31,717 nt of DNA from a virus. The position numbers and the translations under genes were made by a program. Of this stretch, positions 1-31,717 are shown piece after piece (position 1 is the stretch's first letter; each line of letters opens with the position of its first letter). The notes beneath the pieces were generated by a model. The model saw only the letters and a list, made by a program, of their open reading frames with translations. It did not search any database and had not been told where the DNA came from. Location: IMG/VR virus record IMGVR_UViG_3300030103_002268, positions 1-31,717 of that record; one strand, given 5' to 3'.

Positions 1-36
1 TTTAGGCCTTGCTAATATGCTAAAAATATATTTCAT
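1..36 (-). CDS. Small basic protein, N-terminal fragment at window edge
   Basis: Only the first 12 codons are present (residues MKYIFSILARPK) before the window ends. The DNA is identical to the start of the complete 39-aa gene at 29629-29748, so this is the same gene cut by the left edge. Its ATG overlaps the stop of the 81-aa gene by 4 bases, as in the full copy. Function unknown. Confidence 0.75.
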   Translation of the reverse strand, partial: MKYIFSILARPK

Positions 37-73
37 TCAATAGGTTCACTCCATTGATCTGTTGACATTAGTT
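1..73. repeat. Terminal overlap anchor, left copy (73 bp)
   Basis: These 73 bases are identical to 29713-29785. Beyond them the two copies continue to align but with scattered substitutions. With the matching 59-bp anchor at the other end, this indicates that the window is a circular or terminally redundant genome opened at an allelic locus. A true tandem duplication is the alternative. Confidence 0.85.
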
Positions 74-278
74 GCAAAACTTCGGTATAACTTAAAACCT
101 CAACAGGTGTTACAGTTCCATCACTAATGAATGTTGGTGTTGTATTGTATTTTATTACAAATTGCGTTTCATCTAATGACTTCCTAATTGTGTTTTGACT
201 TGTTTCGCCAACTTGTGAGAAATCAACGTTTGCTAAATCTGAAATATTTAAAATTGTATATGTTCTATTGTTTTCCAT
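33..278 (-). CDS. Conserved 81-aa phage protein of unknown function (copy A)
   Basis: An 81-residue acidic, soluble-looking protein with no signal peptide or membrane segment. I do not recognise a domain with a known role; similar short proteins sit after tail appendage genes in flavobacterial phages, which suggests a virion or tail accessory role (inference). It begins 10 bases after the LamG gene ends and overlaps the start of the small basic protein by 4 bases, so translation is probably coupled. Copy B at 29745-29990 differs at only three residues (T/I in the NTTPTF segment, V/F in TPVEV, Q/E in VLQLM), as expected for strain alleles of one gene. Confidence 0.8.
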   Translation of the reverse strand: MENNRTYTILNISDLANVDFSQVGETSQNTIRKSLDETQFVIKYNTTPTFISDGTVTPVEVLSYTEVLQLMSTDQWSEPIE

Positions 279-288
279 TTTTTATATT

Positions 289-1311
289 TTAAGGTGTATC
301 AGCTTTCCTGTCTGCCTCTTCCATGTTGTTACTTGTTGCATTGTTTCCACCGCTACCTTGATCAGTTAATGTCCAGTTTCCACCGCTAAATGTTGCTTCT
401 TCGCCCATTCTTAACCACAATGCTGGAGATAATGAATTTAAATCTCCAGGTTTTCCTGAATTATATAAATCACTAATATTAACAATACTTTCAAAAACTG
501 CAAACTCATCAATTAAACCATTGTAAGCTGACGCACCCGAGTTATTTTGAGCTCCTATATTTTTAATTATCGCCGTGGTCATGGCACTACCAAAAGTGTA
601 TGTATTTGAGCTTTGCACTCCATCTTTATAGTACTTTACATCACCATTTGAATAGTTTATAGTTTGTGCTATGTGATGCCAATTATTATCTCCTAAACCA
701 GTTACACCAGTATATACTGGACTACCGTTAATAAGATTAAACCAACTATTTCCGCTAAATCTTGTAGTGATTATATTGCCTGTACCACCCAACGCTCCAT
801 TAGTAATCCAATATGCAAGAGAATTGTTACTTGCATCATACTTAATCCAACAAGAGAGAGTAAGCCCTCCAGTTACGTTAAAAGTAGCGTCTAGCCCTAA
901 ATTTTCATCTACTCCGTCAAATTCAAAACTAAATTGATTTGCAAACGGTGCAGCGGTAACAGATAAACTAAAATCTGAACTAACACCGTCAACAGTATAA
1001 GTCACAACGTGAGCTGCAATAGTAGAAGCACTTAAATTAATTTCACCTGTTGAAGTACTAACAAACACTAAACCACTTGTGCCGCTAAACGTACCGCCTG
1101 TTGTTCCTGTTATAGTTGGAGTAGGATTTGAATCAGCTTGTGTAAATGATGATGCTGAATAACTAAAAGCAGCACTTACTCCAATCAAAGCAGTATCACC
1201 TGCGTAACTATCTTCATAAATAGAACCTGCGCCAATGTTATTTGTGGCTAGTTTTCCATAACCATTTGTGTTGTTCTTTGCTGCTTGCCCCCATCCGTTT
1301 GTAACTGCCAT
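289..1311 (-). CDS. LamG-domain tail appendage / receptor-binding protein, short allele
   Basis: A 340-residue protein. Residues 1-45 form a glycine/asparagine-rich N-terminal segment (NGWG, NGYG, YEDSYAGDT motifs) of the type that begins structural proteins of flavobacterial phages. About residues 46-120 look like an Ig/cadherin-like beta module rich in Thr and Ser. About 125-290 are one concanavalin-like LamG domain, opening with FSFEFDGVDE and containing DNNWHHIAQT. The C-terminus carries the linker LRMGEEATFSGG...DQGSGGNNATSNN...EADRK. LamG domains bind carbohydrates or proteins, so a role in host recognition is likely but inferred. It is the last gene of the late operon. The long allele at 30002-31717 has a second LamG domain and a different first one. 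Confidence 0.8.
   Translation of the reverse strand: MAVTNGWGQAAKNNTNGYGKLATNNIGAGSIYEDSYAGDTALIGVSAAFSYSASSFTQADSNPTPTITGTTGGTFSGTSGLVFVSTSTGEINLSASTIAAHVVTYTVDGVSSDFSLSVTAAPFANQFSFEFDGVDENLGLDATFNVTGGLTLSCWIKYDASNNSLAYWITNGALGGTGNIITTRFSGNSWFNLINGSPVYTGVTGLGDNNWHHIAQTINYSNGDVKYYKDGVQSSNTYTFGSAMTTAIIKNIGAQNNSGASAYNGLIDEFAVFESIVNISDLYNSGKPGDLNSLSPALWLRMGEEATFSGGNWTLTDQGSGGNNATSNNMEEADRKADTP
905..936 (-). repeat. LamG-flanking linker repeat, copy 1
   Basis: A 32-bp segment encoding the FEFDGVDE linker that opens the LamG domain. It recurs with at most one substitution at 30630-30661 and 31353-31384, always at a LamG boundary, and is a natural site for homologous recombination between domains. 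Confidence 0.8.
1205..1263. repeat. Terminal overlap anchor, partner of the right end (59 bp)
   Basis: These 59 bases are identical to 31659-31717, the last bases of the window. Together with the 73-bp anchor at 1-73 they bracket two alleles of the same locus. Confidence 0.85.
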
Positions 1312-6745: not shown

Positions 6746-8359
6746 TTATTTGTTTTTTGGTGACTTTGGGTGTTTTGCAGGCAATAGATCAAAATCACCT
6801 GTATATTTCGCGTTTTGCGGCCTTCCGTTTCTTACTAAATATAAATAAGCGTTTACTCTAGCTAAAGCCCATTGTTTTGCGCTTGTCACTCTTGGGCTGT
6901 GTGAAACGTTAAAAGCACCTAAACCCCTTTGGAATACAGTTTTTAATTGGCCTATTGTAACACCATAACCTAATTTTTTCTTATACCTTTCATTAAATTC
7001 ATCACTTTTTTTCTGAAGTGTTGCTTCATCTTGTTTGCTTACCTTTGCACCTCTACTTGTAGAAGCATCACCTTTTGCAGTTCCTTTTCCTTTTGGGTTT
7101 TTGTTAGGTGTTCCACTTGCTGGTGCTTTTGGGCTTTTTTTAATACCTCCTCTTGGGCCTACTTCTGCATAACTACTTTTTTTTTTAACGCATTTACCAT
7201 CCTTTTTTTTAAAACCTTTTGGACATTTAGTCTTATACATTTTATCACTAATATGCTTTTCACAAGGCATGTACCAATCTTTGCCCTCAAATTCATGAAC
7301 GTGAAAACCTTTACACCCTATATTAACAGCCATTTCCTCTGCTTTTTCTTGTGTGCTATATGCTAGTCTATCATCAATAATAGCAAAGTCATCATTTATA
7401 AGCATTGAGGTTAAATTAATTTCGCCTAATTCCTTAAGCTTACTTGCTGACCACCTTAACCCCGCTTTGCCTCCCCATAATAAATAGGAAATAGTTCCAC
7501 ACGCTTCATTATCGTTTTCATCATAATATTCCTCTGCTCTACTTAAAAAGCTATACATTCTTTTAATAGTTTCAACACTAATATTTTTTTTGTCTCTTAA
7601 TTGTGTAGCTCTTATTTTGCCTACTTGCGTTGCACATTTATTGTTAACCTTTTCATTTAATTCAATACCTTTTTTTGCATTATTGCTAACACCACTTGGA
7701 TAATCATTGTAAGTTTCTAAAGTTATTTTTTTTCCATTTCTTGTTCTTCTATCATTTGTTATTAAACCTCTAATAGTGTTTAACATGTAAATGGCTTCAT
7801 TTTCTAAAATAGCTTGCATTTCTTGTTTTGAATTATCTCTTTTAATTTTAGCACGATTTGCGAAATAACCTTCTATACTAAAACCTTTTACTTTTCCGCT
7901 TTTTATATAGTCATTCCAAACCTCATCATTTTCAACTTTCATGCTGATCATCCATGTTCCTTCTGGTACGTCTAAACCATATTTTGCCGATTTATCCATT
8001 TTAGTATCTTCTACAATCCAACTTTCAAAAACCGTTAAATCTTCAATTCCCATGCTATGCTCTAAAGTAGCATTGTTTTGATTTCCATTTTTAAAAAACA
8101 ATTCTGCCGCCCTTCTCACAGTTTCTTTTGAAAAGTAAACATAAAACATTTCATCATTTTGCTTTCTAAAAATAGGTTTGTTCGGTATTAAGGCTGCACC
8201 CATTAAAATACGTTTGTCCTCATCTACCTTTGCAAGTTTTATTTCTTGTTCTGCTAGTGCTATGAAATCACTTTCTATTGCTGGATTTTCAACGATGGAA
8301 ACTGCTTCAATGCCTGTAACCTCGTTTTCTTCATCTAATAATAATTCTACTATATTCAT
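6746..8359 (-). CDS. XkdF-type prohead serine protease with C-terminal extension modules
   Basis: A 537-residue protein. Residues 1-170 match the XkdF-like prohead protease family (Peptidase S78 type): IVENPAIES, a LIPNKPIFR core, the candidate catalytic His in TLEHSM (H101) and Ser in KGFSIEGYF (S161). Residues ~205-320 form a helical module (NNAKKGIELNEKVNNKCATQ, AEEYYDENDNEACGTISYLL, WGGKAG). Residues ~335-375 have KGFHVHEFEGKDWYMPCEKH. Residues ~385-450 are a Lys/Gly/Pro linker. Residues ~455-537 contain QWALARVNAYLYLVRNGRPQ and the DLLPAKHP end. Known XkdF proteases trim scaffold and capsid proteins; the extensions are probably capsid-targeted or cleaved parts (inference). It follows the tape measure gene by 12 bases. 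Confidence 0.8.
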   Translation of the reverse strand: MNIVELLLDEENEVTGIEAVSIVENPAIESDFIALAEQEIKLAKVDEDKRILMGAALIPNKPIFRKQNDEMFYVYFSKETVRRAAELFFKNGNQNNATLEHSMGIEDLTVFESWIVEDTKMDKSAKYGLDVPEGTWMISMKVENDEVWNDYIKSGKVKGFSIEGYFANRAKIKRDNSKQEMQAILENEAIYMLNTIRGLITNDRRTRNGKKITLETYNDYPSGVSNNAKKGIELNEKVNNKCATQVGKIRATQLRDKKNISVETIKRMYSFLSRAEEYYDENDNEACGTISYLLWGGKAGLRWSASKLKELGEINLTSMLINDDFAIIDDRLAYSTQEKAEEMAVNIGCKGFHVHEFEGKDWYMPCEKHISDKMYKTKCPKGFKKKDGKCVKKKSSYAEVGPRGGIKKSPKAPASGTPNKNPKGKGTAKGDASTSRGAKVSKQDEATLQKKSDEFNERYKKKLGYGVTIGQLKTVFQRGLGAFNVSHSPRVTSAKQWALARVNAYLYLVRNGRPQNAKYTGDFDLLPAKHPKSPKNK

Positions 8360-17921: not shown

Positions 17922-18417
17922 ATAAACGTTTTTTTATTTTTTTTTTACATTTATTAATTACTTCAAATACTGTAACATGACCTAGCTTTGTTTCTTTTGC
18001 TAAACTTCTAACACTATTAAATTTTTTAGTATATAGTTTTAACAGCTTTTTATCAAACCAATAAAAATTGTTTATTAGATTATTAATGTCTTCTTCTAGG
18101 TATTTTGAATTTTCGTTGCTAGCTACATTTAAAATTTCTAAATTTTCATTTTTATTATATTTGTTTTTACGTTTTGCTTCTATTTGTATTATTTGTAAAA
18201 TAGTTTTTTTTATTATACCAAAATGCGGTTTATTATTAATAATTACCTCATCAGCTTTCAATTTTTTATTATGTAATTGTTCTGCTATACTTAAATACAT
18301 TTCTTGTATTATATCTTTAATTAATTGATCATCCTCTTTATATAATAAATTTTTTGCAATTTGCAACCATTTTTCTTGATGTTTATGTAATATGTTTAAA
18401 ACATCATTTGTTTCCAC
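17911..18417 (-). CDS. Sigma-70/ECF-like transcription factor
   Basis: A 168-residue protein. The N-terminal half (KNLLYKEDDQLIKDIIQEMY, LSIAEQL) resembles sigma region 2. The C-terminal residues ~120-168 (YWFDKKLLKLYTKKFNSVRS, LAKETKLGHVTVFEVINKCK) look like a region-4 helix-turn-helix followed by basic residues. Length fits minimal ECF-type sigma factors. It sits directly before the terminase genes, a common place for late gene activators. It could direct host RNA polymerase to the phage's repeated 36-bp motif, but no binding evidence exists. A HTH terminase-like protein is the main alternative. Confidence 0.6.
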   Translation of the reverse strand: METNDVLNILHKHQEKWLQIAKNLLYKEDDQLIKDIIQEMYLSIAEQLHNKKLKADEVIINNKPHFGIIKKTILQIIQIEAKRKNKYNKNENLEILNVASNENSKYLEEDINNLINNFYWFDKKLLKLYTKKFNSVRSLAKETKLGHVTVFEVINKCKKKIKKRLYEK

Positions 18418-19036
18418 TTGCTAAAAGTATTTCTTTACATAACTGATTTGGTATTTTACTTCTTTCGTAATTATCTTTCAATCCTTGTGTTCCTGTTTTT
18501 GAACCTCTTGGAGCTTCTTCGTGATGACAATGTTTATTACCAGCATAACAAATAGGTCTTGGCTTCCAACCATTAATATTAAATATATCATAAATATTGT
18601 TGCTCCATATATCTGTTGGCTTCATTCTTTTGTCTCCATAACTACAATAGGTTATAGTAGTTCTATCTATTCCTTTTACTTTTCTTCTCATTTTTCCAAC
18701 TGGATTTTCCATATAAAATTTTGCTTTAGGAAACCATTTAAAAATAGATAATGTTTTGTTTAATATTTTTATTCCTAATTCAGCTTCTTTAGTTTTTGGT
18801 GTGTGGTCTTCATTCCAATGATGTCCTATAGATGCTACACTAAAATAGGTGCAAGGAGGAGAAGCCCATATAATATCTGGCTTAAATGGAATCATTTTTT
18901 TTTCTAAATCAAGAATATCAATAACTAAATTAATGTTTTTAAAATTATTTATATCAACGCTAAAAACATCAAAACCTTGTTTTTCTGCTTCTTTTCCTAT
19001 GCTTCGAGATCCTGCAAAAAGTTCAAGCACTTTCAT
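18404..19036 (-). CDS. DNA cytosine-C5 methyltransferase-like protein (1)
   Basis: A 210-residue protein with motif I LELFAGSRSIG at residues 4-14, the catalytic PPC at residues 60-62 in WASPPCTYFS, and an ENP (motif VI-like) at 110-112. Then comes CSYGDKRMKPTDIWSN. Standard C5 methyltransferases are 300 residues or longer with a target recognition domain; this is much shorter, so target choice is unclear. It may protect phage DNA from host restriction. It overlaps the sigma-like gene by 14 bases. An ENP instead of ENV leaves some doubt about strict C5 chemistry. Confidence 0.7.
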   Translation of the reverse strand: MKVLELFAGSRSIGKEAEKQGFDVFSVDINNFKNINLVIDILDLEKKMIPFKPDIIWASPPCTYFSVASIGHHWNEDHTPKTKEAELGIKILNKTLSIFKWFPKAKFYMENPVGKMRRKVKGIDRTTITYCSYGDKRMKPTDIWSNNIYDIFNINGWKPRPICYAGNKHCHHEEAPRGSKTGTQGLKDNYERSKIPNQLCKEILLASGNK

Positions 19037-19373
19037 TCCTTAATTCGTTAAGTTCTAATAGTATATTAACAAAATCTTCATACCTTAAAGCTGCATAATC
19101 ATTTTCAAAATTCTTTGTAAATACTACAACTGGTGTTTTTCTCGTACCTGCTGCATCACCTTCGCTTTGATGTAATGCTTTCCAGATGTTAAGCTTTTCT
19201 TGGTTCTTACACTCCCAACTATATTCACTTAAAATTCCTGATGTTGTTAGTATATCACCTTTTATAGAAAGTCCTCCACTGTTTGGTGTTCTTCTAATAT
19301 TAGTATCAAACTTCTTTGCTAAATCTTTTGCAATTTTTAATTCAAATCTTTTCCCTTTTTTATTAGCATTCAT
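19023..19373 (-). CDS. PD-(D/E)XK endonuclease, resolvase-like
   Basis: A 116-residue protein counted from the ATG at 19373; an ATG at 19397 is also possible but gives a 35-base overlap. It carries E11 in GKRFELKIA, D40 in IKGDIL and the E54-x-K56 in WECKNQ, i.e. E...D...ExK, the metal-binding core of PD-(D/E)XK nucleases. A basic RRTPNSGG segment precedes the core. Size and arrangement fit small resolvase or repair-type nucleases of phages that cut branched DNA. It lies between two methyltransferase genes, overlapping the next by 14 bases. A restriction role is an alternative. Confidence 0.65.
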   Translation of the reverse strand: MNANKKGKRFELKIAKDLAKKFDTNIRRTPNSGGLSIKGDILTTSGILSEYSWECKNQEKLNIWKALHQSEGDAAGTRKTPVVVFTKNFENDYAALRYEDFVNILLELNELRNESA

Positions 19374-20016
19374 CAAATATAGTTTGTTGTTTGACATTTT
19401 CTTTTCTAGTTATTCCTAATACAGTTTCAAGTATTGTTTTACCCGCTTCATAGTCAACTAGGTTTCTTGCAATTTTATTAGTTGGTTGACTTCCTTTGTA
19501 CTTAAAAAAATCGTAATCGTGGAATGCACATAGGTTTTTTACTTCATTTTTACCTCCGCTAATTTTTACTTTTCTTTTACTTAAAATATTTGGTAAATTG
19601 AAGTTTGTCCAATACAAGTGCCGACCTCTTTTCTTTGCAGGAATTAATGGTTCGTAATATGGTATTACATTTTCAACTACATACTTGCCTTTAAAATGAT
19701 GTTGTAAAAATAAAATTTCTTGATACAAACTCATATTTGGATATATTGGTTTTTTCCCATTAGCACCTATCCCCCAATACCTAGCTCTACTATGTGTCGG
19801 GCAAGGCGGCGAACTCCATATAAAGTCAAACTCTTTATAGTGGCCTAACAAATATTGATGCGCATCAGTTACAATGACAGTATCATTTAGAAAACGATCT
19901 TGATATAATCTTGCAGCTTCAGGGTCTAACTCAACCGCAGTAACTTGTATGTCTGTAACCTCATCCCATTTGTAACGATTACCACCCAAACAAGCATATA
20001 AATTAAGTATCTTCAT
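19363..20016 (-). CDS. DNA cytosine-C5 methyltransferase-like protein (2)
   Basis: A 217-residue protein with a motif-I-like LNLYACLGGNRYKW at residues 4-17, acidic VELDPEAA, PPC at residues 70-72 in WSSPPCPTHSRAR, ENV at 115-117 in VVENVIPYY, and a GRHLYWTN segment. It is Dcm-like but short, with a reduced target recognition region. It differs clearly from the neighbouring methyltransferase (1), so this is not a recent duplication. It overlaps the resolvase-like gene by 11 bases. A role in DNA protection, or in marking phage DNA, is likely; the modified sequence is unknown. Confidence 0.7.
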   Translation of the reverse strand: MKILNLYACLGGNRYKWDEVTDIQVTAVELDPEAARLYQDRFLNDTVIVTDAHQYLLGHYKEFDFIWSSPPCPTHSRARYWGIGANGKKPIYPNMSLYQEILFLQHHFKGKYVVENVIPYYEPLIPAKKRGRHLYWTNFNLPNILSKRKVKISGGKNEVKNLCAFHDYDFFKYKGSQPTNKIARNLVDYEAGKTILETVLGITRKENVKQQTIFDEC

Positions 20017-21796: not shown

Positions 21797-22297
21797 TTAA
21801 AATTTATATAAATCTACATTTTTAATTTCATACATATTTTCTTCACAAATAAATTTAGTTTTATCATCTCTTGTTCTTATATCTCCTTTCTTATATAAAA
21901 TACCTTTTTCTGATATTTCTTTTTTTGGTATATAACCACATATTTGAAAAGTATTTTTTTTCATATTGATAGATAAGAAAACAATAATATCACAATTATA
22001 TTTTAATTGACATTCAAGAAAATTGTTTACATAGTGATCTTGACAATTAACATTCCTAGACATTGTTTTCACATCAATAGATTTATTATTATACAATATA
22101 TCAACTCCTTTGTCAAATGTATTTTTAAATGGAGGATAAGAACCAAATAAAATATAATAAAATTCAAACTCGCCAATTAGTCCAATAAGTTGTTTTTCTT
22201 TGCTTCCATCAAATTTTCCTCTTTGAGCTATATTATTTGATTTTAACCAATTCCAAATTTTATTTTTATTTTCTAAATTGATGTTATATATTTTCAT
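21797..22297 (-). CDS. PD-(D/E)XK restriction-like nuclease in the IbrAB cassette
   Basis: A 166-residue protein with E43 in GLIGEFEFYY, D66 in KGVDILYNN and DVK at residues 75-77 in SIDVKTM, i.e. the E...D...DxK layout of PD-(D/E)XK nucleases. A hydrophobic sheet (CDIIVFLSIN) follows and the end has ICGYIPKKEISEKGILYKKG. It resembles phage-encoded type II restriction-like and repair nucleases. Its ATG overlaps the IbrA-like gene by 4 bases, so it is translated with it, and it forms the last part of a four-gene cassette. Substrate unknown; a modification-dependent or -sensitive role is an inference from the neighbours. Confidence 0.6.
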   Translation of the reverse strand: MKIYNINLENKNKIWNWLKSNNIAQRGKFDGSKEKQLIGLIGEFEFYYILFGSYPPFKNTFDKGVDILYNNKSIDVKTMSRNVNCQDHYVNNFLECQLKYNCDIIVFLSINMKKNTFQICGYIPKKEISEKGILYKKGDIRTRDDKTKFICEENMYEIKNVDLYKF

Positions 22298-23502
22298 AAT
22301 TCAGATTCTAATTTTCTTTTATATTTTATTGATTTATATTTTTCATAAGCTTCTGATTTTGGCTGTGTTTGACCTAATCCTTTGCAGTAATAATCATTTC
22401 TTAAAATACATCTAACCATTCTTTTCCAAGATGGAGCCCAACATTTCACTTCTAAATCGTGCGGAGCTTCGTCTGGTATTTTTGCATAGCCTCTTTTTTT
22501 CCATCCAACTATAAACTTTTTAAATTTTTGTTTATAATGTATTTGCATCTTATATGGTAATGATTTAAGTAAATAATTACAATAACTTTCCCAAGTATGA
22601 TTATCTGGTTTTGTAACATTATTGTAACCATTAATATTACCCTTTTCATTAATATATAATGAACCACTATTAACTCCACTCACTCTATTTAATAATTTAT
22701 ACCAAGTATTGCTTTCTAAAATATGATACAACCATAATCCTTTTTTTTGGTCATCTCCATAAGGTTGACACAACCTTTGATTACTTAATTTAACACCTGC
22801 CATTGTCATTAAATCATAAATTTTATTATGACATAAATTTTTATATTTTGAGTGAAAAATCCATATATCTTCAGTTCTCCAATCATAAATTGGATAAACA
22901 TTAAATAAATTATTATTAAGTTTTGTAGTCCATTTATAATTATTATAAGTTAAATTTTTCTTATTAGATGTAATAGCTCGATATCTATGTAAACTTTCAT
23001 CGGATCTTATACCTATAAATCCAGCAGTTAATTTGTCTTGAGCATACCATTTACCAAATAAAACCATAAACTCTTCAAATTCCATTTTAGGAACATAAAA
23101 ATCATATTGTGATAAATCACTTGCTTTATTTGGTTTTTCTCTAACCCATATATTTTCATTATTATTATCCCAACAAGTCCATTTTGGTTGAAAATCACTT
23201 ACTGCGTTTCTTAATAATAATTCACCACAAAACCAATGTAAATCTATATTGTCTTTATACTTTTCAATAATTTCTTCTATATGTTGAATTGTATTTTCAT
23301 ATTGAGCTTCCAAATCTATTATCAAAAGCCCAACTTTTTTATTTCTTTTTATAGCTTCATCTAAAACTAAATGAGTCATAACAGTTGAATCTTTACCTCC
23401 AGAAAAACTTATATAATATTTTTCAAAAGAATCAAAAACTTTAAATATCCTTTCTCTAGATGCTTGTAGCACGTTTTTATTTAAATAGTATTTTGTTGCC
23501 AT
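22294..23502 (-). CDS. IbrA-like PAPS reductase-family (PP-loop) protein
   Basis: A 402-residue protein with the PP-loop SGGKDS at residues 34-39 (ISFSGGKDSTVM), typical of PAPS reductases, DndC and related nucleotide-activating enzymes. The rest fits IbrA/DUF3440-type proteins: LIIDLEAQYENTIQHIEEII, GFIGIRSDESLHRY, YPIYDWRTEDIW and the C-terminal CWAPSWKRMVRCILRNDYYC. The Cys pattern could bind a metal or Fe-S cluster. It starts 2 bases after the IbrB-like gene, the known pairing of this family in prophages. IbrA/IbrB activate surface protein genes in an E. coli prophage; the enzymatic activity is unknown. Sulfur-based DNA or RNA modification is a reasonable hypothesis, not shown. Confidence 0.8.
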   Translation of the reverse strand: MATKYYLNKNVLQASRERIFKVFDSFEKYYISFSGGKDSTVMTHLVLDEAIKRNKKVGLLIIDLEAQYENTIQHIEEIIEKYKDNIDLHWFCGELLLRNAVSDFQPKWTCWDNNNENIWVREKPNKASDLSQYDFYVPKMEFEEFMVLFGKWYAQDKLTAGFIGIRSDESLHRYRAITSNKKNLTYNNYKWTTKLNNNLFNVYPIYDWRTEDIWIFHSKYKNLCHNKIYDLMTMAGVKLSNQRLCQPYGDDQKKGLWLYHILESNTWYKLLNRVSGVNSGSLYINEKGNINGYNNVTKPDNHTWESYCNYLLKSLPYKMQIHYKQKFKKFIVGWKKRGYAKIPDEAPHDLEVKCWAPSWKRMVRCILRNDYYCKGLGQTQPKSEAYEKYKSIKYKRKLESEL

Positions 23503-23504
23503 AA

Positions 23505-24635
23505 TTAATATAATTCAATTTGTCTGTTAATATTTAATGCATCTTCTAAATCTAATTTTTGCATTTTATTTTTTTCTAACCAAATGTTTAAATATTTGTT
23601 AGCTATTAAGTTTGCTTTATTTTGTTGTTCTTTATTTAACTTACTCCAAGCAGTAGAATATTTTGAAGGAACACCAGATAATATACAAACTGCAGCTTGA
23701 CCTAACCAAGCAATTCTATTCATTGCTTTATTTGTAAGATAATGTTCACAACTATATTTCCATTCATTTATAACTCTATTTAGTGATTCATCAAATAATT
23801 TTTCATTAGTCATTATTTCTATAAATTTATTTTCACATTCTTCGTGTGATAAATCATTTAATTTGCTTTTATAAAAGCCTGCTTTGTGACATTCCCATTT
23901 ATCGTAAGTGTGAAAAATTCTTTCTTTATCATCTTCTAATGGTATTTTATATAAGTCGATAACATCACTAACATCATCAGTTAATATTTCATAATTATTT
24001 TCTACATAATCAGATGATTCCCAAGCTTTTGAAAAATCTTTATCATTGAATAAATGCTCTAATCCACTAACTTGACATAACCTTAAAACTTCTTCTTCAT
24101 CCATACCTAACTGTTTTGATATTCTTTTATTTGTCCAGTTTCTATTTTTTAATTCAATAACAATTTCACTCATTGCATTAACTTGGTGTTTTCCTCTTGC
24201 TCTATTGTGCCTAATAGTAGATGCTATTCTATCGTTTTTTGAAGATTGTTCATTTCTTATATTTACAACAGGTAAGTAACCATTTATTCTTTTATTTATA
24301 ATTTTAGATTCTTTACCAACTCTATTTCTATGAAAACCATCAATAACTTCTATTTTATTTTTTTCGTAGTTATCCCAAGTAACAATTGGTTGAGTATAAC
24401 CATCATTTATTATTGAGACTTCTAAAAGTTCCATTTCTGGAGGAGCTACCTTATTTGGATTGTAATCATTAGAAACTACATCTTCACATTTAACCCACCT
24501 AACAAAATCAACAGGTTCGTTTTTAAAAGGGCTGTTTTGATGCAAAAACAATCTTAAATCATTGATCAAATTTATTTTTTCGTCAAAATCTAAATTATTT
24601 AAATTTTTTTTTATTAGTTGTTTGATTTTATTCAT
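23505..24635 (-). CDS. IbrB-like ParB-domain protein with long C-terminal domain
   Basis: A 376-residue protein. The N-terminal ~190 residues match the IbrB/ParB-like domain: DFVRWVKCEDVVSNDYNPN, VAPPEMELL, DGYTQPIVT, the DGFHRNR motif at 99-105 and STIRHNRARGKH at 139-150, then a HTH (WTNKRISKQLGMDEEEVLRL). The last ~150 residues form an extra domain (FHTYDKWECHKAGFY, SCEHYLTNKAMNRIAWLGQA, LEDALNINRQIELY). ParB/Srx-fold proteins bind DNA and some hydrolyse CTP or ATP. It overlaps the 96-aa gene by 8 bases and precedes the IbrA-like gene by 2, as expected for a fixed pair. Target site unknown. Confidence 0.8.
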   Translation of the reverse strand: MNKIKQLIKKNLNNLDFDEKINLINDLRLFLHQNSPFKNEPVDFVRWVKCEDVVSNDYNPNKVAPPEMELLEVSIINDGYTQPIVTWDNYEKNKIEVIDGFHRNRVGKESKIINKRINGYLPVVNIRNEQSSKNDRIASTIRHNRARGKHQVNAMSEIVIELKNRNWTNKRISKQLGMDEEEVLRLCQVSGLEHLFNDKDFSKAWESSDYVENNYEILTDDVSDVIDLYKIPLEDDKERIFHTYDKWECHKAGFYKSKLNDLSHEECENKFIEIMTNEKLFDESLNRVINEWKYSCEHYLTNKAMNRIAWLGQAAVCILSGVPSKYSTAWSKLNKEQQNKANLIANKYLNIWLEKNKMQKLDLEDALNINRQIELY

Positions 24636-28820: not shown

Positions 28821-29332
28821 TCTTTGCTTTCTTTCTTCTTTTTAGCTTTTTGACCTGCTGCGCTTTTTGGTTTAAATCCTTGTGGCTGAAATCTTAAATA
28901 CTCTACTTCCGCATCGAAACAAGGGCACTGCTTTAAAAATTCAAACTCGTCAATTTTACCATCGTTATTTTTATCTGGTGATAAATCTCTGTGGCCATGA
29001 ATTTTAGCATCTGGATAAATATGTTTTAGCTGTTTAATCATTTTAATTAATAGCTCTTTTTGTCTTTCAGTTCTTGTATCTTTTGCTTTTCCGTTACTAT
29101 CTAATCCACCGATATAACATATTGAAGCAGCATATTTGTTGTGCCCTCTAACACTAGCAGGCATTTTACTTAATGGTCTACCAAATTCTATTTGTTGGTG
29201 TCCAATAATATAATGATAACCAATGTCAGACCAGCCCCTGTTTAAATGCCATCTTCTAATTGTGTCAGCTGTTATTGCTTGACCTTCTTTTGTTGCACTA
29301 CAGTGGATATGTATTTCTTTAATTACTCTCAT
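28817..29332 (-). CDS. N-acetylmuramoyl-L-alanine amidase (endolysin) with EF-hand-like loop
   Basis: Counted from ATG at 29332 (171 residues); an upstream start would add 11 Lys-rich residues. It fits the T7 lysozyme/PGRP-type zinc amidases: IHIHCSA (H10), the GYHY strand (Y39, H40), HGHRD (H114) and CPCFD (C138) supply zinc and catalytic residues. Between the last two is DKNNDGKIDEFE (120-131), an excellent EF-hand calcium loop pattern. The C-terminus is Lys-rich, perhaps binding the cell wall or membrane. It cuts the peptide link in peptidoglycan for lysis. No signal peptide is seen, so it depends on the holin. Confidence 0.85.
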   Translation of the reverse strand: MRVIKEIHIHCSATKEGQAITADTIRRWHLNRGWSDIGYHYIIGHQQIEFGRPLSKMPASVRGHNKYAASICYIGGLDSNGKAKDTRTERQKELLIKMIKQLKHIYPDAKIHGHRDLSPDKNNDGKIDEFEFLKQCPCFDAEVEYLRFQPQGFKPKSAAGQKAKKKKESKE

Positions 29333-29621
29333 TTTTGTTTCTTTTTTGGACTCTTTTTTTTGCATTAGTAACTAACCTTTCACTCATTTTAGCAACCTTA
29401 ATACGAAGCTGAATATTTTCCTCAATCAATAATTCAATTTTATTTTCTAACTGTTGTATTTTATTTGTTAGTATTTCGATCTGTTGCGCATACACGTTTT
29501 CTTCTCGTTCTTCTTTCTTTGCCCCAATATCAATTTTATGTTTTATGATTGTCCAAACTTCTTTAAGTCCTAAAGCTGAAATGACACCAGCCAAAGCAAT
29601 CCATATATTATTCTCATCCAT
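29319..29621 (-). CDS. Membrane-anchored coiled-coil protein in lysis block
   Basis: Counted from ATG at 29621 (100 residues), 7 bases after the 39-aa gene; a longer frame to 29684 runs inside that gene and is unlikely. Residues ~5-27 (IWIALAGVISALGLKEVWTI) form a membrane segment, followed by a long coiled coil (EILTNKIQQLENKIELLIEE) and a basic C-terminus. This layout fits an antiholin-, holin- or spanin-type lysis protein. It overlaps the amidase gene by 14 bases. Exact role undecided. Confidence 0.6.
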   Translation of the reverse strand: MDENNIWIALAGVISALGLKEVWTIIKHKIDIGAKKEEREENVYAQQIEILTNKIQQLENKIELLIEENIQLRIKVAKMSERLVTNAKKRVQKRNKNESN

Positions 29622-29628
29622 TACTATT

Positions 29629-29748
29629 TTATTTACCTTGTCCACGATATTTTTTCTTATATCCCTTTTTTCCTTTACTAGCATTTTTGCTATGTATACC
29701 CTTTCTGCTTTTTTTAGGCCTTGCTAATATGCTAAAAATATATTTCAT
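29629..29748 (-). CDS. Small basic 39-aa protein
   Basis: A 39-residue gene: MKYIFSILARPKKSRKGIHS, then KNASKGKKGYKKKYRGQGK. It is packed with Lys and Arg and ends with YRGQGK, a pattern I recall from small proteins in related phages. It overlaps the 81-aa gene by 4 bases. A truncated duplicate begins at the left edge of the window (1-36). Unknown function; nucleic acid or capsid binding would suit the charge. Confidence 0.7.
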   Translation of the reverse strand: MKYIFSILARPKKSRKGIHSKNASKGKKGYKKKYRGQGK

Positions 29749-29785
29749 TCAATAGGTTCACTCCATTGATCTGTTGACATTAGTT
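29713..29785. repeat. Terminal overlap anchor, right copy (73 bp)
   Basis: Identical to 1-73. It marks the start of the second allele of the 39-aa, 81-aa and LamG genes; see the left anchor for interpretation. Confidence 0.85.
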
Positions 29786-29990
29786 CTAAAACTTCGGTAT
29801 AACTTAAAACCTCAAAAGGTGTTACAGTTCCATCACTAATGAATGTTGGTATTGTATTATATTTAATTACAAATTGTGTTTCATCTAATGACTTTCTAAT
29901 TGTGTTTTGACTTGTTTCGCCAACTTGTGAAAAATCAACGTTTGCTAAATCTGAAATATTTAAAATTGTATATGTTCTATTATTTTCCAT
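29745..29990 (-). CDS. Conserved 81-aa phage protein of unknown function (copy B)
   Basis: Same protein as 33-278, differing at three residues. It lies 11 bases after the long LamG allele and overlaps the small basic protein by 4 bases. The two copies are better explained as alleles of one gene than as paralogues, because every neighbouring gene is repeated in the same order. Confidence 0.8.
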   Translation of the reverse strand: MENNRTYTILNISDLANVDFSQVGETSQNTIRKSLDETQFVIKYNTIPTFISDGTVTPFEVLSYTEVLELMSTDQWSEPIE

Positions 29991-30001
29991 TTTTTTATAT
30001 T

Positions 30002-31717
30002 TTAAGGAGTATCTGCTTTTCGATCTGCTTCTTCCATGTTGTTACTAGTTGCATTATTTCCTCCACTACCCTGGTCAGTTAGTGTCCAACTTCCACCGCT
30101 AAATGTAGCTTTCTCGCCCATACGATACCAAGCCACAGGATTTAATGTTGATAAACTTGAGGGTTGCCCTGTTCCATAAATAGTGTCAATATTATCACCA
30201 GATAAATCATAATCAAAAATTGCTAATTCATCTAAATTGCCATTAAATCTGAAACTATTTACAGCAGTTTCTGCTATCATTACAGTGCCATTTGAATTGC
30301 CTAAACTACCAGAAGCAACGGTTCCAGTAACAGGAGATAAATTATCTATATATAACTTTAAAGTTGTTCCCTCTCTAACACCTGCAAAAAAATGCCAGTT
30401 ACCATCATTTAAAGTGCTTGCTGATTGAACTTGTACAGGAACAGAAGTACCATCTTTTGAAACCCAAAAATATATTTTACCGCTTTGCATATATACAGCC
30501 CAATTATTAATACCCGATGCTCTTTTAGTAAAAAGATTCATTACAGATGTGGAGCTTGTTTTAAACCATCCAGAGATTGAAATATTATTTGTTAACTGTA
30601 ATTCAGTAGGATTTCCAATTGTAAAACCCTCATCTACTCCGTCAAATTCAAAACTAAATTGGTTAAAAGATGCAGGTGTGTTTGTTTTTCGATCTGCTTC
30701 TTCCATGTTATTACTCGTTGCATTATTTCCCCCGCTTCCTTGATCGACCATAGTCCAAACTCCTGTACCACTGTTAAATGTTGCTTCTTCGCCCATTCTC
30801 CACCAACCAATAGGATTTAATGTTGATAAATCACTTGGTGAACCAGTTCCATAAATTGTGTTAATATCTGTTTGAGATAGTACCGAATTAAAAACTGACA
30901 CTTCATCAATTAAGCCAGGAAAATAATTTGCTGCATTTATAAATGAACCAATGAAAACATCTCCAAAAGTAAAGTTTTGAACTGTAAAAAAATCTGTTGT
31001 GCCACTGCCAAATTGTTTAGTAAAAGTTTGAGCTTGTCCATCTATATAACAATAAGCGTGTCTTGTACTGTTGTTAAAAGTCCATAAAATATGTTTCCAG
31101 CCAGCCCCCTCTAAATTTACATTTGTAGCAGTATATGTGCCATAATTGCCTCCTGATGAGTCAAGACCTTGATGAACTGCGTGTAAATTTGGCCTTTTAT
31201 ATAACGCTCCTAAAGTTTGGCCCACTGTTTGGCTGCCTGGCTGTACTGACATAGGAGCTACGTATTTATTACCTGTGTAACTTCCGTTAGCGTTTAACCA
31301 GTAACTAATTGTAAAATCTGTATTTGCTAAATTTAAACCTGTCAAAAAATCTTCATCTACTCCGTCAAACTCAAAACTAAATTGATTTGCAAACGGTGCA
31401 GCGGTAACAGATAAACTAAAATCTGCACTAACACCGTCAACAGTATAAGTCACAACGTGTGCCGCAATAGTAGAAGCACTTAAATTAATTTCACCTGTTG
31501 AAGTACTTACAAATACTAAACCACTTGTCCCGCTAAACGTACCGCCTGTTGTTCCTGTTATTGTAGGTGTTGGATTTGTATCAGCTTGTGTAAATGTACT
31601 TGCAGAATAACTAAAGGCAGCACTAACAGTAACACCAATCAAAGCTGTATCACCTGCATAACTATCTTCATAAATAGAACCTGCGCCAATGTTATTTGTG
31701 GCTAGTTTTCCATAACC
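30002..31717 (-). CDS. LamG tail appendage protein, long allele, N-terminus off the window
   Basis: The frame is open to the right edge (571 codons seen). By comparison with the short allele, 16 N-terminal residues are missing. The part after a TTG at 31642 is not the true start: the preceding 25 codons (GYGKLATNNIGAGSIYEDSY...) match the short allele. After the N-terminal and Ig-like parts come two LamG domains, each opened by FSFEFDGVDE and closed by the RMGEEATF/RMGEKATF...GSGGNNATSNNMEEADRK linker. The first contains YCYIDGQAQTF; the second DGNWHFFAGVREGTTLKLYI. Likely host-recognition protein; the second domain may extend reach or widen binding. Confidence 0.8.
   Translation of the reverse strand, partial: GYGKLATNNIGAGSIYEDSYAGDTALIGVTVSAAFSYSASTFTQADTNPTPTITGTTGGTFSGTSGLVFVSTSTGEINLSASTIAAHVVTYTVDGVSADFSLSVTAAPFANQFSFEFDGVDEDFLTGLNLANTDFTISYWLNANGSYTGNKYVAPMSVQPGSQTVGQTLGALYKRPNLHAVHQGLDSSGGNYGTYTATNVNLEGAGWKHILWTFNNSTRHAYCYIDGQAQTFTKQFGSGTTDFFTVQNFTFGDVFIGSFINAANYFPGLIDEVSVFNSVLSQTDINTIYGTGSPSDLSTLNPIGWWRMGEEATFNSGTGVWTMVDQGSGGNNATSNNMEEADRKTNTPASFNQFSFEFDGVDEGFTIGNPTELQLTNNISISGWFKTSSTSVMNLFTKRASGINNWAVYMQSGKIYFWVSKDGTSVPVQVQSASTLNDGNWHFFAGVREGTTLKLYIDNLSPVTGTVASGSLGNSNGTVMIAETAVNSFRFNGNLDELAIFDYDLSGDNIDTIYGTGQPSSLSTLNPVAWYRMGEKATFSGGSWTLTDQGSGGNNATSNNMEEADRKADTP
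30021..30064 (-). repeat. Post-LamG linker repeat, copy 1 of the long allele
   Basis: Encodes the NNATSNNMEEADR linker after LamG 2. It is nearly repeated at 30690-30733, 669 bases (223 codons) away, and again in the short allele near 310-350. Linkers like this allow one LamG unit to be gained or lost without a frameshift. Confidence 0.75.
30630..30661 (-). repeat. LamG-flanking linker repeat, copy 2
   Basis: 32 bp identical to 905-936; opens LamG 2 of the long allele. Confidence 0.8.
30690..30733 (-). repeat. Post-LamG linker repeat, copy 2 of the long allele
   Basis: Encodes the linker after LamG 1. Most positions match 30021-30064; the differences are mainly third-codon changes. Confidence 0.75.
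31353..31384 (-). repeat. LamG-flanking linker repeat, copy 3
   Basis: 32 bp, one substitution from 905-936; opens LamG 1 of the long allele. Confidence 0.8.
31659..31717. repeat. Terminal overlap anchor at the right edge (59 bp)
   Basis: Identical to 1205-1263. The right edge of the window falls inside the appendage gene exactly where the short allele continues, supporting circular closure. Confidence 0.85.

Follow-up and report, generated by a model that had tools for sequence, protein, structure and literature searches.

The LamG gene found at both ends of the window (the whole stretch of DNA analysed here, which is the complete IMG/VR record IMGVR_UViG_3300030103_002268, a virus contig of 31,717 bases and 30% GC assembled from a metagenome) is very probably a strain-variable tip gene, represented by two alleles at the circular wrap-around of the contig, in which the LamG block has been swapped by recombination with relatives. 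The short allele, a probable LamG tail-adhesin gene of 340 aa, occupies positions 289–1311 on the minus strand, to which the main open reading frames (ORFs) of the window belong throughout; it is defined by its ORF, by a match to Pfam Laminin_G_3, and by a gene order the same as in relatives. The long allele (30002–31717, minus strand), an ORF with two PF13385 stretches, is seen over 571 aa and is 5′-open at the contig end, with about 16 codons missing. An earlier note on this DNA gave 289–1311 as the site of the difference between the alleles; that interval does hold the short allele, and the long one lies outside it.

Domain architecture and breakpoints of the two alleles

In the short allele, a conserved N-terminal part and an Ig-like all-beta domain, extending to an FEFDGVDE motif (904–1311, minus strand), are followed by the sole LamG domain, which is the exchanged block (412–903, minus strand; a single PF13385 domain at residues 142–275, E 3e-12 in Pfam), and by a C-terminal linker, RMGEEATF...DRKADTP (289–411, minus strand). 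The long allele, also on the minus strand, comprises an N-terminal part with the Ig-like domain (31352–31717), LamG domain 1 (L1, 30800–31351), an internal linker (30629–30799), LamG domain 2 (L2, 30125–30628), and a terminal linker (30002–30124), the first, second and last of these having been delimited by domain-wise alignment. The internal linker reads ...DRKTNTP and then ASFNQFSFEFDGVDE, that is, a repeat of the gene-end linker followed by a repeat of the pre-LamG motif; it is 80–83% identical to the terminal linkers at the amino acid level, the pre-LamG motif being repeated at 100% aa and 92% nt identity. A junction of the same kind (TP-ASFNQ) is present in the relative L090. With the two PF13385 stretches of the long allele detected at E 1.8e-31 (Pfam), the count of one LamG domain in the short allele against two in the long one, as originally proposed, is borne out.

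Comparison of the alleles, codon by codon where noted, revealed a sharply partitioned divergence. The N-terminal and Ig-like part is 97.5% identical in aa and 93.9% in nt, with 17 synonymous and 3 nonsynonymous codon changes (codon-by-codon), and the C-terminal linker of the short allele is 95% identical in aa and 83.7% in nt to the terminal linker of the long one. Downstream of each allele lies a gene for an 81-aa protein, present as copy a (33–278, minus strand) and, by alignment to it, copy b (29745–29990, minus strand), which are 96.3% identical in aa and 95.9% in nt (codon-by-codon). By contrast, the LamG domains show 29.7–30.8% aa and 45–47% nt identity in all three pairings (short with L1, short with L2, and L1 with L2). 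Thus, the short LamG is indeed distant from both long ones (~30% aa), as the earlier note had it, within N-terminal, Ig-like and linker parts that are 95–97.5% identical in aa. A maximum-chi-square scan, blind to the domain positions, identified one divergent segment, from 898 to 411, with 48% mismatches inside and 6.7% outside; its chi-square value was 287 vs a maximum of 23 among 200 shuffles. The LamG block set independently by motifs spans 903–412, so that the breakpoints match the LamG borders and uniform divergence along the gene is excluded. On the 3′ side, the linker is more diverged at the DNA level than the adjoining 81-aa gene (Fisher p 1.5e-4), and therefore the exchanged tract may reach the gene end, past the LamG border. 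Judging from these sequences, the linker, conserved as protein, probably travels with LamG, and the crossover on this side may have occurred close to the stop codon.

Could the alleles differ by the stepwise gain or loss of LamG units within one lineage, through unequal crossing-over? In favour of this scenario, the long allele contains internal repeats of the linker and the pre-LamG motif, and relatives carry both one- and two-LamG genes. However, the three LamG domains are mutually ~30% identical in aa within surroundings that are 94–96% identical as DNA, and adding or removing a unit cannot interconvert such alleles: deleting either L1 or L2 from the long allele would not yield the LamG of the short one, and a duplication cannot account for the long allele, since L1 and L2 match each other no better. 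We therefore consider this scenario highly improbable, and the description of the difference as domain gain or loss is not supported, given that the short LamG is equally remote from either long one and the whole LamG block has been replaced.

The contig ends and the two versions of the locus

By ORFs and profiles, the gene set of the window includes a terminase, a tape measure protein, a protease, a portal, the DUF6712 gene (1323–1823), the LamG gene and the 81-aa gene, and the opposite contig end encodes a 121-aa coiled-coil protein (29319–29684), an amidase and a metallophosphatase. The order around the short allele, namely, portal, DUF6712 gene, LamG gene, 81-aa gene and lysis genes, is identical in relatives, in which the contiguous order is portal, DUF6712 gene, LamG gene(s), 81-aa gene, 121-aa gene and amidase; therefore, the two ends of the window are neighbours in a circle. 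Indeed, the contig ends overlap: an end-to-end repeat comparison identified 1–1263 and 29713–31717 as two versions of one locus, with DNA repeats between 1–283 and 29713–29995 (96%) and between 899–1179 and 31347–31627 (93%). The first 73 nt are identical to 29713–29785, and 1205–1263 are identical to 31659–31717 (59 nt). A single assembler k-mer was considered as the source of the ends; because the identical runs differ in length (73 vs 59 nt), the ends lack a simple one-k-mer assembler signature, and this test is uninformative.

The relatives bear directly on whether the two versions are alleles or separate genes. Among 25 relative records searched whole, the 81-aa gene is present in single copy in all 24 that have it, and a second full N-terminal region was found in none; thus, two alleles at the circular wrap-around fit better than two genes. 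Furthermore, a related strain, represented by IMG/VR 3300029309_000707 and _000754, is mostly 92–95% identical to the window; its two contigs can be joined at their inner ends, and on the outer side each stops at or beside the LamG/81-aa locus. Identity over the 81-aa stretch is 96.5% between the two window copies and 95.1% and 95.8% between each of them and this strain, so that the three 81-aa alleles stand at about equal distance. Most simply, then, this one contig would represent one turn round the genome of a strain mixture, with the locus re-entered via another strain. The co-existence of strains, put forward in the earlier note, is something that we, too, infer from the assembly, and it is well supported by the single-copy 81-aa gene and the equidistant third strain.

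The alternative is that the two versions are tandem paralogues in one genome, the short gene with copy a and the long gene with copy b, with a small joint missing. Both copies are, after all, on one contig, no more than about 16 codons and a spacer would be missing, and many relatives carry two adjacent LamG genes. However, the second LamG gene of those relatives has a different N-terminus and is still accompanied by one 81-aa gene, neither the full N-terminal region nor the 81-aa gene is duplicated in any relative, and the distance between copies a and b is of the strain-level order seen to the third strain. Mainly on the single-copy 81-aa gene, the single N-terminal region and the third-strain distances, we reject tandem paralogy as decidedly unlikely and retain the reading of two strain alleles. 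Contig ends are also denser in the tip region (3.4 per 10 kb) than down- and upstream (0.9–1.7), a weak pointer that is biased by the sampling of the locus. An exact 29-nt search found the same strain nowhere else in IMG/VR.

Several observations can be added on the contigs and genes involved. A third, more distant contig of 30.2 kb from the same sample as _000707 and _000754 (L145/L146; 3300029309_000228) has both of its ends in the region that separates its LamG gene from its 81-aa gene. In larger contigs, too (L110, L113 and L131; 37, 53 and 77 kb), the 81-aa gene is found directly behind LamG genes, and the two apparently travel together among other phages. The model of the 81-aa protein has a pLDDT of 87 and matches no solved structure in the PDB with E below 0.9; because the model comes without a structure match, a chaperone role for this protein is a guess.

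Exchange among relatives and a possible mechanism

Exchange of the LamG block can be traced among the relatives of the window phage, of which 145 were found through the portal. In the pair L011/L092, the LamG domains are 99.8% identical over 558 nt and the portals 68%; a tract of 100% identity spans from the Ig-like part to the LamG end, and identity drops on both sides. The LamG domains of L127/L128 are 95.4% identical in nt (portal 70%), and those of L052/L074 are 98.7% identical (portal 73%). Conversely, 12 of 12 non-duplicate pairs with a DUF6712 gene at least 85% identical have LamG less than 65% identical, a level near that of unrelated AT-rich DNA in such alignments. The portal and DUF6712 gene of L123 and L127 are 99.7% identical, with longer flanks at 90–95%, whereas their LamG genes are of 499 vs 277 aa, with two vs one LamG, and L090/L103 is another one- vs two-LamG pair on close backgrounds. 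Across 27 loci with a single LamG gene, some of them near-duplicates, the number of LamG domains is one in 21 and two in 6. The best match of L2 (69% aa, 82% nt) is a LamG that stands alone in its gene, in L007, so that LamG units also change position. A search for donors of the window's own three LamG domains yielded none above 82% nt. Thus, LamG cassette exchange is supported, and the proposal of cassettes moving within conserved surroundings is upheld both by the breakpoint scan in the window and by independent transfers among relatives.

In-place targeted diversification, by a diversity-generating retroelement or an invertible segment, might be envisaged instead, since the variation is confined to the ligand-binding domain, as in retroelement targets. 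Yet neither a reverse transcriptase nor an invertase was detected among the ORFs scanned, including all those of at least 280 aa; the alleles differ by whole domains, with changes in length, rather than by adenine point changes; and identical LamG tracts occur in distant phages. The probability of this explanation is close to negligible.

We propose, accordingly with caution, the following course of events under the preferred reading of recombination with relatives. The genome would assemble as a circle owing to circularly permuted or terminally redundant DNA. The LamG block would be replaced via homologous recombination with co-infecting relatives, for which the tracts are seen in the relatives and the enzymes are presumed; an exonuclease VIII-like nuclease and a RusA-like resolvase are encoded in the window. 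Homology arms would be provided by the conserved Ig/DGVDE sequence and, across the LamG block, by the linker together with the 81-aa gene. Every LamG unit has the same end linker and the same short motif at its start, so that two units could be joined by linker recombination, presumably giving rise to the two-LamG alleles. Selection would presumably be for altered binding to the host surface. A bolder version of this proposal, which we regard as unlikely, is that the borders of the LamG units (the DGVDE motif before, and the RMGEEATF...DQGSGGNNATSNNMEEADRK linker after, repeated in two-LamG alleles) are kept as DNA recombination arms, constituting an evolved plug-in system for swapping and stacking lectin units across many phages, rather than being a by-product of protein conservation. 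As a separate observation, the RusA-like resolvase gene (19023–19397) is flanked by genes for two different short cytosine-methylase-like proteins (18404–19036 and 19363–20016, minus strand), each with a partial PF00145 match.

Protein fold, likely role and related systems

The PF13385 profile scores of 47.4 and 109.7 bits exceed the gathering cut-off of 27.6. An AF2 model of fair confidence (mean pLDDT 62; 76–95 over residues 41–120, the Ig-like region of the short allele) matches pentraxins and LamG domains in the PDB at E about 1e-6, showing a jelly-roll beta-sandwich, and LamG-like viral proteins are among its best fold matches. The long allele matches phrog_24534, ‘tail fiber protein’, at E 4e-7 and, better, phrog_347, ‘tail terminator’, at E 4e-16, both probably through LamG alone; the short allele has no PHROG match. 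The LamG/pentraxin-like fold, the tail-fibre match of the long allele and the position between structural and lysis genes suggest that the product is most likely a tail adhesin, in which the conserved N-terminal part and the Ig-like domain would serve for attachment and one or two lectin-like LamG domains, followed by the conserved C-terminal linker, would bind glycan. A role of the gene in host recognition is plausible on the same grounds of fold, family match and gene position.

The closest isolates are the Nonlabens phages P12024S and P12024L (portal 33% aa, terminase 50% aa), which makes a marine flavobacterial host likely for this siphovirus-like phage. No phage isolate carrying the LamG gene of the window was found by DNA or protein comparison. 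In these two phages (NC_018271, NC_018272), the tail-fibre gene gp10 occupies the same place as the LamG gene, after the portal and a DUF6712-like gene and before the lysis genes and, much as in the window alleles, an N-terminal part, identical in gp10, precedes a diverged tip in which the number of repeat units differs by one; however, gp10 is without a LamG domain and has no detectable similarity to the window gene. Within gp10 (6549–8216 of L147, P12024S; 6549–8147 of L148, P12024L), the first ~650 bases are identical before the tip diverges, in phages of the same host; P12024S has one 23-aa repeat unit more than P12024L, and the stretch to the endolysin/holin differs as well.

Domain swapping of this kind, affecting lectins and tail fibres, is already known from marine phages, and the LamG locus is a well-resolved new example. 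Under the name of metaviromic islands, such domains have been described as being replaced between strains of marine phages (Mizuno et al. 2014, PMC3909814). As in the window, strain variation there affects lectin-like, carbohydrate-binding and tail-fibre genes, with a conserved N-terminus and a variable distal part, and the LamG locus likewise shows sharp replacement on a conserved strain background; however, those islands are known from read recruitment and involve tail-fibre and C1q-domain genes, whereas here LamG cassettes are exchanged, with breakpoints and tracts at the nucleotide level, in another phage group. Tail-fibre modules common to distant phages have also been described in the Alteromonas phages A5 and V22 (PMC10579305), where, similarly, a tail-fibre module and an adjacent small gene are found in distant phages and an extra domain is inserted in some fibres. 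In that case, however, whole modules move and the chaperone is proven, whereas here the LamG block alone moves and the role of the 81-aa protein is conjectural. A literature search with a limited set of terms found no papers on LamG in flavobacterial phage tails or on the LamG family of the window.

At this locus, the swapping of lectin domains can thus be followed at nucleotide resolution in marine phages of a widespread group that is mostly uncultured, including a recent LamG transfer between backbones with portals only 68% identical. It also explains why assemblies break or double back at the LamG gene, since what looks like an additional gene at a contig end can be the allele of another strain, and the LamG type is a possible host-range marker in phage populations.

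Two further features of the window are worth recording. An XkdF-like head protease (PF14550) of 537 aa is fused to extra domains, DUF3721 and DUF5824 (6746–8359, minus strand). At 22294–24635 (minus strand), a PAPS-reductase-like/DUF3440 protein of 402 aa adjoins a 376-aa protein with a weak ParB-domain match, an arrangement that we take to resemble the IbrA/IbrB pair.
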